NCBI RefSeq assembly: GCF_004337705.1
Contig: NZ_SKBU01000015.1
Location: 78,852-142,851 of the forward strand
Length of the DNA stretch: 64,000 nt
DNA from: Rubrobacter taiwanensis
Lineage (GTDB): Bacteria > Actinomycetota > Rubrobacteria > Rubrobacterales > Rubrobacteraceae
Reading direction: 5' to 3'
Positions 19,311 through 64,000 of the stretch are shown piece by piece. Every line of letters starts with the position of its first letter. Positions within the stretch are counted from its first letter, which is position 1. The notes beneath the pieces were generated by a model. That model searched no databases and was not told where the DNA came from. It was given only the letters and a program-made list of their open reading frames with translations. A program made the position numbers and the translations under genes.

Positions 19311-19483
19311 ATAAAAGGCTCCACCCTGCCGTCGCGGCGAATTTTTTGAACCTGCTTCGCAGGTGGGTGTCCCAGAGGACGGTGCGCTCGTCCGGAGCAG
19401 CAAGGCCCTTAATGGAGACTCCCTCGTCAGTTAGGGTGTTGGCCCAAAATGTCTTCGCCGCTAACGCACAGGGTCGAGCCTGT
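19311..19483 (-). ncRNA. ssrS: Probable 6S RNA
   Basis: A stretch of about 173 bases without a convincing gene folds into one long rod on the minus strand. The 5' segment ACCCTGTGCGTTAGCGGCGAA pairs with the 3' segment TTCGCCGCGACGGCAGGGT, leaving a central region and an apical arm. Near the 3' side a small hairpin CCTGC-GAA-GCAGG followed by TTCAA resembles the 3' bubble hairpin of 6S RNA. A promoter (TTGCTT, 17 bases, TAACTT) lies at the right place upstream and a CCTTTTAT tail follows. Bacillus subtilis also has a 6S gene beside aspS. Ends are approximate. 6S RNA binds the housekeeping RNA polymerase. Confidence 0.62.
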
Positions 19484-57279: not shown

Positions 57280-59741
57280 AGCAGTCCGGAGCAACGCCCG
57301 GCTCGTGGATCCCGGACCGGCGCAGGATACCTGCTCTGGGCGTGGTCGGGCTCGGGATAATAGGGTTCTTCACGCTCGTGGCCGTACTCGCGCCGCTTCT
57401 CGCCCCCTACGACCCCAGCGCCCGGGTAGCGCCGCCCTTCGCCGCGCCGAGCCTCGCCCACCCGCTCGGGGCTAACGACGTCGGGAACGATCTCTTGAGC
57501 AGCCTCATCTTCGGCACCCGCATCTCGCTCGTCGTGGGCGTCGCGGCAGCGGTAGCCGCGACCGTTATCGGCACCGCGGTCGGACTGGCCTCCGGGTACT
57601 TCGGCGGCGTAACAGACGCGGTGCTGATGAGGTTGGTGGATGTCGCGCTATCCCTGCCCTTCCTGCCCCTCATGATCGTGATAGGAGTCTTCCTCGGACC
57701 GGGGCTCTCGACGGAGATCATCGTGATCTCCAGCGTCATCTGGGCCGGAGCGGCCAGGGAGTTGCGCTCCCAGGTGCTCTCGGTCAGCCAGCGGGACCAC
57801 GTCCGGGCCGCCCGGGCGATGGGTGCGGGAGGGACCTACATACTCCGCCGCCACCTCCTGCCGGCGGTCTTCCCGCTCGTGATCCCCCAGTTCGTCCGCG
57901 CCGCGAATATAGCTATCCTGCTTGAGGCTTCCCTGAGCTTTCTGGGCCTCGGGGACCCCATCAAGCAGAGCTGGGGCACGATCCTCTTCTACGCCAACGC
58001 CCGCAGCGCCTTTCTTACGGACGCCTGGATCTGGTGGGTCGTCCCGCCCGGGCTCTGTATCGCCCTCGCGGTCCTGTCCTTTGCTTTTATAGGCTTCGCT
58101 CTGGAGGAGCGCACCCGGCCCCGGTTGCACGCGCTCGCCCCTGCTCAGGTACGCCGCAGCCTCCCGGCCCAAGGTCCGCGCCGGGGAGACTGCCTGCTCG
58201 AGATCGAAGCCCTCACAATAGAGTACGGAGAGCGGCGGGCCGTAGACGGGGCAAGCCTGAAGCTGCCCCGGGGACGTACGCTCGGCGTCGTGGGGGCTTC
58301 GGGTAGCGGCAAGAGCACGCTGGTCTTTGCGGTCATGGGCCTGCTGCGGGCCCCGGCACGTATCACTTCGGGCCGAGTCTTGCTCGCCGGGGAAGATCTG
58401 CTGGGAGCCCCGGAGAAGCGGCTGCGCGAGCTGCGCGGCGACCGGGTGGCGCTCGTCCCGCAGACAGCGATGAACGCGCTCAACCCCATCCTCCCCGTCG
58501 CGAACCAGATCGCCGAGGCCATCCGGCTCCACCGCCCGGTGAGCCGTAAGACCGCCCGCGAGCGGGCGCTAGAGATGCTGGAGGCGGTCGGCATCCCGCG
58601 CGCGCGGGCCGGAAGTTACCCGCACGAATTCTCGGGCGGCATGCGCCAGCGCGCCGTCATCGCAATGGCGCTGGCCAACGAGCCCGACCTGTTGGTCGTG
58701 GACGAGCCCACCACAGGCCTCGACCCCCGCATACAGGGCGAGATCCTCCGACTCCTCAAACGCCTCCAGAGAGAGATGAACCTCGCCATCCTCCTCATCT
58801 CCCACGATTTGCCGGTAGTGAGCCGCACGGTGGACACTCTGGCGGTGATGCAAGAGGGCAGGATAGTCGAGGCGGGACCGGCGGATGAGATCCTCTCCCG
58901 CCCCCAACACCCGTACACCCGCCGTCTCTTGCAGGCCGCCCGGCCTGAGCGCCTCCGCCCCCCACTCACCTCTACCGACAGGACACCGCTGCTCCGGCTC
59001 GAAGGCGTCTCCAAAGCCTACCGGAACGCCATTGCAGCCGACAGAATAAGCTTCGAGGTCCGGGAAGGAGAAGTAGTGGGCCTCATAGGAGAGAGCGGGG
59101 CCGGCAAGAGCACCCTGGCCTGCATGATCCTGGGCCTCGAACGCCCGGATGCAGGACAGATACGGTTCGAAAACCGAGTTCTCAACGACCTCTCCCGGCG
59201 CGAGCTGCGAGCCGCGCGCAAGCGCCTGCACCTGGTCTTCCAGGATCCCTACCAGTCGCTGCCCGAACACCTGCGGGTGCGTGAGATAGTATCCGAACCC
59301 CTGCGCATCCACGGCGAGCCAAAGGTCGAAGACCGGATGCAACAAGCTCTGAGAGAGGTGGACCTGGACCCCGCTCGCTACGCCGAACGCTACCCTTCAG
59401 AGCTCTCCGGCGGCGAGCGCCAGCGCGTGGCCCTCGCCCGCGCCGGGGTGCTGCAGCCACGCCTCGTCGTGCTGGATGAGCCCACCTCCATGCTCGACGC
59501 CGGGCTGCGCAAAGATCTGCTAGAGTCGCTGGAGCGCCTCAAAGAAGACCTTGGAGTCTCCTACCTGTGCATCACGCATGACCTGCTCCTCGCCCGCGCC
59601 TTCTGCGACCGGCTGGTGGTGCTGCGCCGGGGACGGGTTGTGGAGCGCGGCCCGGTGGAGTCGGTTATCCGGAAGCCGAAAGAACCCTACACCCGGCAGC
59701 TCGTGCGTGCCGGGCTGCCGGAAGAGAACCGCGCTACGTAA
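57276..59741 (+). CDS. Fused DppC-type permease and two ABC ATPases
   Basis: 821 residues with three parts. Residues about 1-290: DppC-type permease with six helices and EAA loop AMGAGGTYILRRHLLPAV. Residues about 305-555: DppD-like ATPase (Walker A GASGSGKST, signature FSGGMRQRAVIA, Walker B LLVVDEPTTG). Residues about 570-815: DppF-like ATPase (GESGAGKST, LSGGERQRVALA, LVVLDEPTSM). Normally these are three separate genes. Together with the first permease they would form a complete importer with only two membrane polypeptides. Confidence 0.92.
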   Translation: MKQSGATPGSWIPDRRRIPALGVVGLGIIGFFTLVAVLAPLLAPYDPSARVAPPFAAPSLAHPLGANDVGNDLLSSLIFGTRISLVVGVAAAVAATVIGTAVGLASGYFGGVTDAVLMRLVDVALSLPFLPLMIVIGVFLGPGLSTEIIVISSVIWAGAARELRSQVLSVSQRDHVRAARAMGAGGTYILRRHLLPAVFPLVIPQFVRAANIAILLEASLSFLGLGDPIKQSWGTILFYANARSAFLTDAWIWWVVPPGLCIALAVLSFAFIGFALEERTRPRLHALAPAQVRRSLPAQGPRRGDCLLEIEALTIEYGERRAVDGASLKLPRGRTLGVVGASGSGKSTLVFAVMGLLRAPARITSGRVLLAGEDLLGAPEKRLRELRGDRVALVPQTAMNALNPILPVANQIAEAIRLHRPVSRKTARERALEMLEAVGIPRARAGSYPHEFSGGMRQRAVIAMALANEPDLLVVDEPTTGLDPRIQGEILRLLKRLQREMNLAILLISHDLPVVSRTVDTLAVMQEGRIVEAGPADEILSRPQHPYTRRLLQAARPERLRPPLTSTDRTPLLRLEGVSKAYRNAIAADRISFEVREGEVVGLIGESGAGKSTLACMILGLERPDAGQIRFENRVLNDLSRRELRAARKRLHLVFQDPYQSLPEHLRVREIVSEPLRIHGEPKVEDRMQQALREVDLDPARYAERYPSELSGGERQRVALARAGVLQPRLVVLDEPTSMLDAGLRKDLLESLERLKEDLGVSYLCITHDLLLARAFCDRLVVLRRGRVVERGPVESVIRKPKEPYTRQLVRAGLPEENRAT

Positions 59742-60474
59742 AGGGGGACGGCCCGCGCTTCGGATCCGGAAGAACGCCTCCCAGCTCCCGCGGCGGCCCG
59801 CCGAGCTCGCCCTGCACCCGCTCCAGAAAGGCGCGGGCGAGATCCATTCGGCCCCCGGCGAGAGCCCGCACCGCCAGCTCCGCCGACTCGCCGTCTACCT
59901 CTCGCAGCGCGGGGACGGTTCTGCGCGGGTTCGCCGGCCACTCGCCCTTGAGCCGGATCAGGGCGTCCGCCCCGAACCGGACGGCCTGCGCCAGCAGCAG
60001 CGCGAGCGTCGCCCGTTCATCCAGCTCTTCGCTCTGCGCACGCTCCAGCAGCAGTCTCCGCAGGTGCTCCAGCTCGAAGCTCGCGTACCGCCGCTCCTCC
60101 GCGCTCATCGGGGGCGGTCCCTTGCGGTAGAGCTGCCGGATCTCCGCCACCAGGCGCGCGAAACGCCCCTCCGGGTCGTACAGTATCCGGGCCTCCGCCC
60201 AGGCCGGGACCACTTTCTCAGGCAGAGTCTCTTCCTCCACGGCCTTCCAGACCTCCACCTCGCTCTTGAAGAGGACCTCCACCGGCCACCCGTGATAAAG
60301 GAACGTCTCTACCCGCTCGGGGCTCTCCCCTTCAACCAGCGCCACCATGTCCAGGTCGCTCCCCGACCGCGCCTCGCCGCGGGCGAACGAACCGACCAGA
60401 GCTATTCCCGCCAAGCCCGCGCACCGCCGCAATTGGGCCACCAGCGGCTCTATGTCGGGACGCTCCCCTACCAC
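59734..60474 (-). CDS. Nucleotidyltransferase-domain protein (MNT-like)
   Basis: 246 residues. The N-terminal nucleotidyltransferase motif GSFARGEARSGSDLDMVAL (GSxARGx9-11DxD) is intact, with the third acidic residue in GWPVEVLF. The remainder is helical (about residues 120-230), resembling MNT/HEPN-like fusion or kanamycin nucleotidyltransferase-like proteins. Target unknown. Convergent with the ABC operon (8-base overlap) and lying immediately downstream of the rRNA terminator. Confidence 0.82.
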   Translation of the reverse strand: MVGERPDIEPLVAQLRRCAGLAGIALVGSFARGEARSGSDLDMVALVEGESPERVETFLYHGWPVEVLFKSEVEVWKAVEEETLPEKVVPAWAEARILYDPEGRFARLVAEIRQLYRKGPPPMSAEERRYASFELEHLRRLLLERAQSEELDERATLALLLAQAVRFGADALIRLKGEWPANPRRTVPALREVDGESAELAVRALAGGRMDLARAFLERVQGELGGPPRELGGVLPDPKRGPSPFT

Positions 60475-60653: not shown

Positions 60654-61012
60654 TTCTAAAATATTTACTTGTAAATCCCCCGCGAGAGAGGCGCCTGAGC
60701 TTTGAGAACTGCATAGCGCATCGAGCAATAGCATTAAGCCCTCGGCCTATTAGTACCACTCGGCTCAATGCGTCGCCGCACTTACACCTGTGGCCTATCA
60801 ACCTGGTGGTCTACCAGGGGCCTTACCCCCTAGAAGGGGGGGAGACCTCATCTTGGGGTGGGCTTCCCGCTTAGATGCCTTCAGCGGTTATCCCTTCCGC
60901 ACATAGCTACCCGGCGGTGCCCTTGGCAGGACAACCGGTACACCAGAGGTGCGTCCACTCCGGTCCTCTCGTACTAGGAGTCGCTCCCCTCAAGTCTCCT
61001 GCGCCCACGGAA

Positions 61013-61058
<46 letters not shown>

Positions 61059-61059
61059 G

Positions 61060-61095
<36 letters not shown>

Positions 61096-61167
61096 ACTCC
61101 AGCCCCAGGATGCGCTGAGCCGACATCGAGGTGCCAAACCGCTGCGTCGATGTGAACTCTTGGCAGC

Positions 61168-61210
<43 letters not shown>

Positions 61211-61360
61211 CGGCACTTCCACTCGTTACCGCCGGATCACTAAGCCCGACTTTCGTCCCTGCTCGACCCGTCGGTCTCACAGTCAAGCTCCCTTATGCCT
61301 TTGCACTCTGCGCACGATTTCCGACCGTGCTGAGGGAACCTTTGGGCGCCTCCGTTACCG

Positions 61361-61400
<40 letters not shown>

Positions 61401-61535
61401 CTGTTCCCCACCCGGATCACGGCGCGGGGTTAGAACACCAACACACCCAGGGAGGTATCTCAAGGACGGCTCCACCGAGACTGGCGTCCCGGCTTCCCAG
61501 CCTCCCTCCTATCCTGCACAAGGTGTGTCAGCATC

Positions 61536-61576
<41 letters not shown>

Positions 61577-61632
61577 TTTCCGCGGGTAATCGGCATCTTC
61601 ACCGATACTACAATTTCACCGAGCCTCTGGTC

Positions 61633-61697
<65 letters not shown>

Positions 61698-62324
61698 CGG
61701 ACACTCCCAACTGTTTCCAGAAGGGCCGGACTTTATCTTAGCTGGCCTCGATTCACCTGCGCGGCGAGGCGTCGAATCTCTTCAACACCCTCCGCTGTCA
61801 GATGATCGCCCGCCTCCATCATCAACAGGATGCGGCGGAACTTTTGAAATTCCACGCGCTTCCTGGACTTCAGCGGGTGCTTAACGAAGAATGGAACGAT
61901 GTGCCGGAGCAGATGCTCCTTACCCCTCACGCGGTAGGCCATCCGGTCACCGTGGTCCTTGCGAACCACGCCGCAACCGAAGTAAGCCTTCAGCGCGTAC
62001 AGAAGCTGCACATCGCGCTCGTGCCGCACGACAGTGAATTCAGGCAGAACCTGATATCCGGCGCTCATCTCGGGATGCTCGTTGATCCCGACGAAGAAGC
62101 AACCTTCACCATCCACGAAGCCTGTTATCCACCCTGCGTCAAGCTTCATCGGCCAACCCCGAACGTAAAGTCTCTGAGGGTTCCCGCTGCAGCTGCGGGC
62201 CTTCCCTGCGGATTGTCCATGTATCCGCCGGATTTTTACTGCCGATATAAGTATACCGGCTAGTACCGGACGGCTTTAGGAGTTCCCCGCATATGGTTCG
62301 GTTTTACTAAGGCTAGCGTTACTA
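61698..62324 (-). other. Group I intron in 23S rRNA after position U1931 (E. coli numbering)
   Basis: 627 bases interrupt the rRNA between CCTAAGGT and AGCGAAATT. P1 can be read: the exon CTAAGGT pairs with the intron GCCTTAG, with the splice-site U opposite G. P7 strands are CAGAGACT (about 62169-62176) and AAGATAAAGTCC (61729-61740), matching conserved group I elements R and S. The last intron base is G (61698). The position corresponds to L1931, known as an intron site in Thermotoga; that is from memory. Confidence 0.93.
61733..62149 (-). CDS. LAGLIDADG homing endonuclease of the 23S intron
   Basis: 138 residues with one LAGLIDADG motif (WITGFVDGEGCFF, residues 7-19) and a beta-strand region (LPEFTVVRHERDVQLL), so it should act as a homodimer. 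It occupies the loop between the two P7 strands (P8 region). Its TAA stop is part of the P7 3' strand. It is expected to cut intronless 23S genes at the L1931 site and promote intron spread. Confidence 0.93.
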   Translation of the reverse strand: MKLDAGWITGFVDGEGCFFVGINEHPEMSAGYQVLPEFTVVRHERDVQLLYALKAYFGCGVVRKDHGDRMAYRVRGKEHLLRHIVPFFVKHPLKSRKRVEFQKFRRILLMMEAGDHLTAEGVEEIRRLAAQVNRGQLR

Positions 62325-63180
62325 ACCTTAGGACGGTTATAGTTACCGCCGCCATTGACCAGCGCTTCGGTCGGGAGCTTCGCCCGAAGGCTAACCCCCT
62401 TCCTTAACGTTCTGGCATTGGGCAGGCGTCAGCCCCTATACGTCGTCTTTTCGACTTAGCAGAGACCTGTGTTTTTGATAAACAGTCGCCTGGGCCTATT
62501 CTCTGCGGCTCCGGACAGCTCTGGGCCGCGTGGACCCTCACCGTCCAGAGCTCCCCTTCTCCCGAAGTTACGGGGACAGTTTGCCGAGTTCCTTGACCAG
62601 AGTTCGCTCGATCGCCTTAGTGTTCTCCACTCGCCCACCTGTGTCGGTTTGGGGTACGGGCACGTGCGTGACTCGCTTAGAAGCTTTTCCCGGAAGCATG
62701 GGTTCAGCCACTTCGCCCCGAAGGGTTTCGGCTCACTCCTCAGGCCTGTAACGGGGCCCGGATTTTCCTGGTCCCCGCCCTACGAGCAAGCCCGTGGTCG
62801 ACCAGCGCCACGGTTGGCCTACCCTTCTCCGTCCCTCCATCGCTCAGACGCCACGCCCGTGGTGCAGGAATATCAACCTGCTGTCCATCGCCTACGGCTT
62901 TCGCCCTCGGCTTAGGTCCCGACTAACCCTGGGCAGATTAGCTTTACCCAGGAACCCTTGGGCATTCGGCGGACAGGTTTCTCGCCTGTCTTTCGTTACT
63001 CATGCCAGCATTCTCTCTCCTGATGCGTCCACGGCTCAAGCTCACGCCGCCGCTTCATCCGCGACAGGATGCTCCCCTACCACTCCAGCACAAGGCCGAA
63101 GTCCGCGGCTTCGGCAAACGGCTTAAGTCCCGCTGAATTTTCGGCGCAACACCACTTGACCAGTGAGCTATTACGCACTC

Positions 63181-63212
<32 letters not shown>

Positions 63213-63470
63213 TGGTTGTCTGTGCAGCGCCACATCCTTTGCCACTTAGCCGTTATTTAGGGGCCTTAGCCGGCGGTCTGGGTTGTTTCCCTCTCGGGAC
63301 CGAAGTTTATCCCCCGGCCCCTGACTCCGGCGCTCTAACGTCCACGGTCTTCGGAGTTTGTCTGAGATTGGTAACCTTGTAGGGCCCCGCACTCAAACAG
63401 TGCTCTACACCCGCGACGAAACACGCCAGGCTATACCTAAATATATTTCGGGGAGAACCAGATATCGCCG

Positions 63471-63508
<38 letters not shown>

Positions 63509-63565
63509 GCCCGGTTTTCAACCCGAGTCGGTTCGGCCCTCCACGAGGTCTTACCCCCGCTTCAG

Positions 63566-63599
<34 letters not shown>

Positions 63600-63784
63600 G
63601 CGGCACCTGACTAGACGCCCTGTTCAGACTCGCTTTCGCTGCGGCTCGCTCCGTAAAGCTTAACCTCGCCAGGCACCAGCAACTCGCTGGCCCGTTATGC
63701 AAAAAGTACGCCGTCACAGCAGTAGAACCGCTGCTCCGACCGCTTGTAGGCGTATGGTTTCAGGTACTCTTTCACCCCCCTTGC

Positions 63785-63815
<31 letters not shown>

Positions 63816-64000
63816 GGTTCACTATCGGTCACCGTTAGTATTTAGCCTTGCGGGGTGGTCCCCGCGGATTCGATCCGGGTTTCACGTGTCCGGACCTACT
63901 CAGGTACCAGGACAGGGAGTCGCCCGAGTTTCGCCTACGGGGCTTTCACCCTCTGCGGCCGAGATTATCCATCCCGGTTCGGCTACCCGCGCGATTTGTA

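Follow-up and report, generated by a model that had tools for sequence, protein, structure and literature searches.

A probable mobile group I intron, most likely acquired horizontally, at position L1931 of the 23S rRNA gene of Rubrobacter taiwanensis

Introns that encode endonucleases with one LAGLIDADG motif are described at position L1931 from Thermotoga, Simkania, Synechococcus, green algal organelles and Acanthamoeba (PMC1995217), and 23S insertions at 1931 with LAGLIDADG_1 proteins are described from CPR bacteria (PMC11270868). The Thermotoga introns (T. naphthophila, T. neapolitana and T. petrophila) are given as 698–700 nt long with a 162-aa endonuclease, the intron of Simkania negevensis as 654 nt with a protein of 143 aa, and those of Synechococcus lividus C1 and Synechococcus sp. 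C9 as 675 and 666 nt, IC1-like and devoid of P2 (PMC1995217). For the intron protein of T. neapolitana a maturase-like activity has been reported, and the same 2014 review saw little evidence for horizontal movement of introns among bacterial species (PMC3984707). Our literature search, with most subscription papers outside its reach, returned no report of such an intron from Rubrobacter or Actinobacteria.

The intron described here lies in a 64,000-nt stretch of the genome of Rubrobacter taiwanensis (the window) and is a further case of this known kind. It shares with the Thermotoga introns the insertion site and a single-motif LAGLIDADG protein, which is 56% identical to I-TnaI (PDB 5gkk) and is predicted to adopt the same fold. 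Judging from its name, we take I-TnaI to be the L1931 enzyme of T. naphthophila. In contrast to this likeness, the window intron is about 70 nt shorter, and I-TnaI groups with a second protein, G251 (support 99/90), outside the window clade. The Simkania intron has the same site and class, and a Simkaniaceae locus (L007) belongs to the window's clade; however, the chlamydial rows form a separate subclade, and the Simkania intron is reportedly termed unspliced in the title of a 1999 paper by Everett. Going by their published descriptions, the Synechococcus introns agree in site and in their single LAGLIDADG motif and reside in hot-spring cyanobacteria, and the CPR insertions agree in site and in protein family (LAGLIDADG_1) and reside in CPR hosts. 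A second L1931 lineage within the phylum of the window (L061–L068, L071, L072 and L075) uses the same site and protein family, but forms a separate clade (98/97) whose members score at most about 140 bits with the endonuclease model, as against at least 231 bits for the full-length rows of the window clade.

The 5′ exon ends at 62325 and the 3′ exon starts at 61697 (Table 1). On the minus strand the junctions read ...AACCGTCCTAAGGT/TAGTAACGCTAGCCTTAG... and ...GGGAGTGTCCG/AGCGAAATTCCTTG..., which places the insertion after U1931 and before A1932 in E. coli numbering, counted from the helix 69–71 sequence. The joined exons equal the uninterrupted sequence of four family members (L025, L034, L035 and L036). 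An earlier sequence-only reading of this DNA had derived exact splice sites from the pairing of exon CUAAGGU with intron GCCUUAG, with a U-G pair at the junction; this pairing is kept in the window and in all 15 relatives aligned with it. The placement at L1931 proposed by the same reading also stands, with both junctions of these 15 relatives at the same site. The terminal omega-G is present in 15 of the 16 introns, the exception being L010, which ends in A. As that reading had suggested, we compared the insert with the Rfam model Intron_gpI, which aligned over its full length (1–253; 44.4 bits, E 6.1e-10). Since this score is below the curated gathering score of 50, the intron is missing from a gathering-score scan. 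The Rfam alignment has its start in helix 69, and its path through P1 departs from the guide pairing. Free folding of 62130–62340 (z −3.2) recovered P1 and P4, with P3 absent. The guide pairing, a P3–P9 core, the omega-G with P9.0 and the full-length Rfam match together confirm a group I intron.

Table 1. Positions of the intron, its host gene and their elements in the window
Feature	Position	Strand	Evidence or remark
23S rRNA gene, interrupted	60730..64000, runs past window end	-	RF02541, 2468 bits
Compensated flip in host helix 69: C1909G (62347) and G1921C (62335)	62335..62347	-	comparison of relatives
Group I intron at L1931, 627 nt, terminal omega-G (61698)	61698..62324	-	exon junctions; RF00028, 44.4 bits
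Single-motif LAGLIDADG_1 homing endonuclease gene, 138 aa	61733..62149	-	PF00961, E 3.7e-23
P1, 5′ exon strand CUAAGGU	62325..62331	-	pairs with internal guide sequence
P10 strand CGCU	62315..62318	-	pairs with 3′ exon AGCG 61694–61697; 4/4 in window
P1, internal guide sequence GCCUUAG	62307..62313	-	7/7 positions paired in 16/16 rows
P3, 5′ strand	62296..62301	-	pairs with 62159–62164
P4, 5′ strand	62286..62291	-	pairs with 62207–62212
P5, short in window	62279..62281	-	pairs with 62216–62218
P6 and P6a	62178..62206	-	paired cells and double changes
P7, 5′ strand	62167..62172	-	pairs with 61729–61734; 6/6 in window
P8, 5′ strand	62151..62158	-	pairs with 61740–61747, also endonuclease coding sequence
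P9.0, 5′ strand	61726..61727	-	pairs with 61699–61700, directly before omega-G
P9, GAAA loop	61706..61725	-	pairing over rows

To examine the helices, we aligned the window intron with the 15 loci that have both junctions, out of 16 found by protein search. For each helix the paired cells were compared with the level after shuffling, and pairs with double changes were counted. The counts should not be taken as probabilities, since the rows share ancestry and shuffling preserves only the composition of each column. P8 pairs in 121/124 cells (shuffled 61%) with double changes in 8/8 pairs, P6a in 75/77 (64%; 5/5), P9 in 89/96 (77%; 5/6), P9.0 in 32/32 (77%; 2/2), P3 in 96/96 (95%; 2/6) and P6 in 48/48 (92%; 1/3). 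P5 has three pairs in 16/16 rows, two of them with double changes; by eye, the window forms three contiguous pairs where five are possible in most relatives. The group I reading draws on the double changes in P3, P5, P6, P6a, P8, P9 and P9.0 across the 16 introns. P1 (112/112 cells, shuffled 100%, a single pair varying between G-C and G-U) and P4 (96/96, shuffled 100%, invariant) are near-invariant and show no double changes, and P7 (84/96, shuffled 86%; 1/6) and P10 (44/55 cells in 16 rows, shuffled 80%; 0/4) hardly exceed or only equal the shuffled level. These four helices thus neither support nor refute the fold. For P10, pairing matches the shuffled level because the exon is invariant.

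The homing endonuclease gene that the sequence-only reading had placed inside the intron matches PF00961 with 82.8 bits against a cut-off of 23.1, and its catalytic motif is intact (ITGFVDGEGCF, with GFVDGEG). In one chlamydial L1931 intron (L014) this motif reads GFVDGRG, so that the second acid is lost. The predicted structure, the best of five AlphaFold models (pLDDT 84.3; the other four 49.5–57.6), matches I-TnaI with Z 19.4 and rmsd 2.2 over 137 residues, at the 56% identity given above. Between the window and L002 endonucleases pN is 0.124 and pS 0.626, with synonymous sites near saturation. The gene sits in the P8 loop: its start codon follows one base after the P8 5′ strand, and its stop codon falls within J8/7–P7. 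The final codons, CGA GGC CAG CTA AGA TAA, also supply the P8 3′ strand, J8/7 and the opening bases of P7, and the covariation of P8 therefore falls inside the gene end. The bases GGGG, 8–11 upstream of the start (GGAG in some relatives), lie within P3/P8; from this location, translation of the endonuclease would be expected to compete with folding of the intron.

A protein search with the endonuclease returned 16 relatives (63–79% identity), all at L1931; 15 have both junctions there and L017 has the 5′ junction only. They carry 11 phylum-level labels if Deltaproteobacteria are counted apart, one of these labels being contradicted by the 23S. Many relatives are contigs of metagenome-assembled genomes, and not all labels are correct: the 23S of L013 is chlamydial, although its genome carries the label Actinomycetota. 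The 23S of L016, labelled Klebsiella, groups with gammaproteobacterial loci in a comparison that held no Klebsiella 23S. Four relatives (L003, L007, L009 and L011) stand on contigs of at least 1.9 Mb, which limits the worry about misbinning. In a draw of 396 genomes from the phylum of the window, 40 match the endonuclease model, and loci were taken for 30 of these 40 and for G045. L1931 endonuclease introns are present in about 14 of the 396 (the window, L059, L061–L068, L070, L071, L072 and L075), counting L063 and L070 with one junction each and L070 (G362) with a doubtful host, since its 23S falls with a Chloroflexi locus; the junctions come from blastn, and their left ends may be off by as many as 10 bases. 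The suggestion that bacterial introns at this site are rare does not agree with these numbers, with the 16 loci under 11 phylum-level labels, or with the published descriptions from Thermotoga, Simkania and Synechococcus (PMC1995217) and CPR bacteria (PMC11270868).

Further inserts were seen at and near this site. Endonuclease inserts at about L1911, with the 3′ exon starting at A1912, occur in L020 (about 1290–2035), L021, L085 and L086. Their endonucleases are related to those at L1917, and their support as introns by Rfam is weak (E 0.033 for L020, E 0.014 for L021); neither 1911 nor 1912 is mentioned in the body of the CPR survey (PMC11270868). Stacked inserts combine L1917 with L1931 in L004 and L005 (read directly) and in L071 (blastn junctions), and L1923 with L1931 in L006 (read directly) and in L061, L067 and L072 (blastn junctions), leaving exons of 8–14 nt between them in helix 69–71. 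Inserts free of an endonuclease lie at or beside L1931 in L021 (2041–2364; Intron_gpI E 1.7e-10) and in L019 (335 nt), the latter ending in C if placed at L1931. In L019 (G036) an L1931-type endonuclease apparently sits in an insert at about L1911, possibly by a change of insertion site. Two vehicles were considered and rejected. Among viral contigs searched with two exact peptide patterns, 29 of 211 stretches encode a relative, the best at 40% identity and hence none of them close. Matches to the 23S stretch came from 553 plasmid records, all with coverage below 80%; the 15 listed cover 65%, which is the exon share of that stretch.

The family of the window comprises 13 genera, and among 60 relatives there was no other family nearer than the phylum. 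The 3′ exon is visible in 16 of 39 family genomes, of which 15 have an empty site and the window genome alone has the intron. The remaining 23 showed neither the intron nor the empty-site pattern; they are treated as unreadable and were not counted as empty. A search of nine of these 23 for 23S found none in eight and, in G008, only pieces beside N-masked sequence. G032 (L022) has a weak endonuclease match (E 2e-4) at a locus without 23S. The host helix 69 carries a compensated base change, C1909G with G1921C, whose nearer base lies 10 before U1931. The same change occurs in four of the 15 intron-free relatives (L025, L034, L035 and L036) and is absent from the other 11. Because the 23S tree unites these four with the window genome (support 96), the base change is most likely older than the arrival of the intron.

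In a tree of 51 endonucleases the clades mostly track the insertion site, L019 being an exception. The window protein groups with L002–L016 (support 88/86, and 79/77 in a second tree with other rows), and the clade of G251 and I-TnaI is sister to this group, the whole of 18 rows having support 100/99. G251, also inside this wider clade, is an L1931 endonuclease from the phylum of the window. Chlamydial loci L006, L007 and L014 form a subclade of their own within the window's clade. By path length L002, L003 and L004 are nearest to the window; branching in this part is too poorly resolved for a donor to be named. The sequence-only reading had proposed horizontal arrival from a thermophile or an organelle, with Thermotoga and algal L1931 introns as a comparison. 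A donor in Thermotoga is not indicated, as I-TnaI stands beside and not inside the window clade.

Horizontal arrival itself is supported by the 15 readable relatives with empty sites (23 more being unreadable) and by the trees. When the window was constrained to the main L1931 clade of its phylum, the AU test gave p 0.037, and when it was placed there together with G251, p 0.0005; these values flatter because the forced group was named after the tree had been seen. In a set of 15 loci, the endonuclease (p 0.0015), the ribozyme core (p 0.0005) and the intron as a whole (p 0.0002) each reject the topology of the 23S tree. Errors in this 15-row tree, several of whose deep branches have weak support (31–64%), may account for some of the rejection. 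Conversely, the 23S alignment rejects the endonuclease and whole-intron trees. In 18 of 105 pairs the cores are at least as similar to each other as the 23S sequences are; for the window and L002 the values are 0.861 for the core and 0.822 for the 23S (over 1324 columns), and for the window and L004 they are 0.814 and 0.766. Intron and 23S identities correlate over the 105 pairs (Spearman 0.60), and the chlamydial loci remain one group, which shows that part of the history is host-bound; such descent is real alongside transfer. The core also rejects the endonuclease tree (p 0.0002). In the core tree L012 is the partner of L005 (81), in the protein tree that of L015 (86); this discord, seen in a short alignment, hints at exchanged genes.

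The complete 23S gene (G000:C6:139581–143209, G000 being the window genome) is the sole 23S match in the assembly. The single 16S gene adjoins it, and 16S, 23S and 5S follow in order on one contig with protein-coding sequence alongside. A search of the assembly for an empty L1931 site gave no match at up to three mismatches. Being a draft in 57 contigs, the assembly may have collapsed 23S copies. G+C content is 56.6% in the intron and 67.3% in the first 60 kb of the window. The window also contains a 6S RNA (19314–19482, minus strand, 65 bits) and, adjoining the 5S gene, an ORF that by eye is nucleotidyltransferase-like (59734–60474, minus strand). The actinobacterial setting suggested earlier is supported indirectly. 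Of 80 genomes from the phylum draw, 41 contain WhiB, an actinobacterial marker, and among 14 controls Corynebacterium alone does; seven genomes of the window's family, the window genome included, showed none. This distribution, with its controls, points indirectly to Actinomycetota as the phylum.

We are confident in reading the locus as a mobile group I intron, most likely acquired horizontally after the split from the sampled relatives. The intron is probably self-splicing, judged from its sequence. The pre-rRNA would fold, an external guanosine would attack after U1931 in P1, and the freed exon would then attack after the omega-G, held by P9.0 and P10, joining the exons into a normal 23S rRNA. 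The endonuclease would work as a homodimer that cuts intron-free 23S genes at L1931, and repair would copy the intron in; by analogy with the Thermotoga relative, it may also aid folding of the intron. The source would be a lineage moving among bacterial phyla.

Other readings of the locus can be weighed against this one. An artefact of assembly or binning, with the 23S contig coming from another organism, has precedent in that rRNA contigs are often misplaced, and L013 and L070 look misplaced when judged by their 23S. Here it is highly improbable, as the window 23S clusters with 15 family members at support 100, its nearest 23S (L036) is 96% identical over 1334 columns, and the contig that holds the ordered rRNA genes also holds neighbouring protein-coding sequence, with ABC-transporter matches (generic, below 60% identity in the plasmid protein search). 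Another reading accepts group I descent and denies splicing: the insert would be kept in the ribosome, or excised by RNase without ligation to leave a fragmented 23S rRNA. The term unspliced in the title on the Simkania intron and the short P5 of the window speak for it. We nevertheless regard it as distinctly unlikely, since P9.0, P10, omega-G and guide are intact, and P8 and P9.0 covary as expected under selection for splicing. Moreover, a 627-nt insert retained beside helix 69, in the only 23S copy found, should be costly.

The intron might also be spliced and yet immobile, with an open but inactive endonuclease and vertical inheritance within the species. Damaged copies do exist in the group, as L014 shows among the 15 aligned rows, and a recent loss of activity would be compatible with the sequence of the window protein. 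This reading is unlikely, if less so than an unspliced intron: the gene retains the LAGLIDADG_1 motif, an I-TnaI-like predicted fold and a pN far below pS, which argue for mobility, and the placement in the tree favours transfer.

Beyond this locus, we lean slightly towards a broader account of the mobile intron, in which a single L1931 lineage has recently been passing between bacterial phyla, endonuclease and ribozyme sometimes swapping partners, and the window records one arrival into a target already bearing G1921C, within a family in which the site is empty in every other readable member. The reading of recent passage is based on the core, which in places is as similar between phyla as the host 23S. 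The arrival is bracketed by one carrier genome, 15 empty relatives, a conflicting endonuclease tree and 11 phylum-level labels at the site, and serves well as an example of intron transfer across distantly related bacteria, in a lineage spread over many phyla. Its P8 offers a clean test of one RNA strand serving both as a catalytic helix and as the end of a protein gene, and the G1921C change in the host clade offers a test of how far a homing endonuclease tolerates a changed target.
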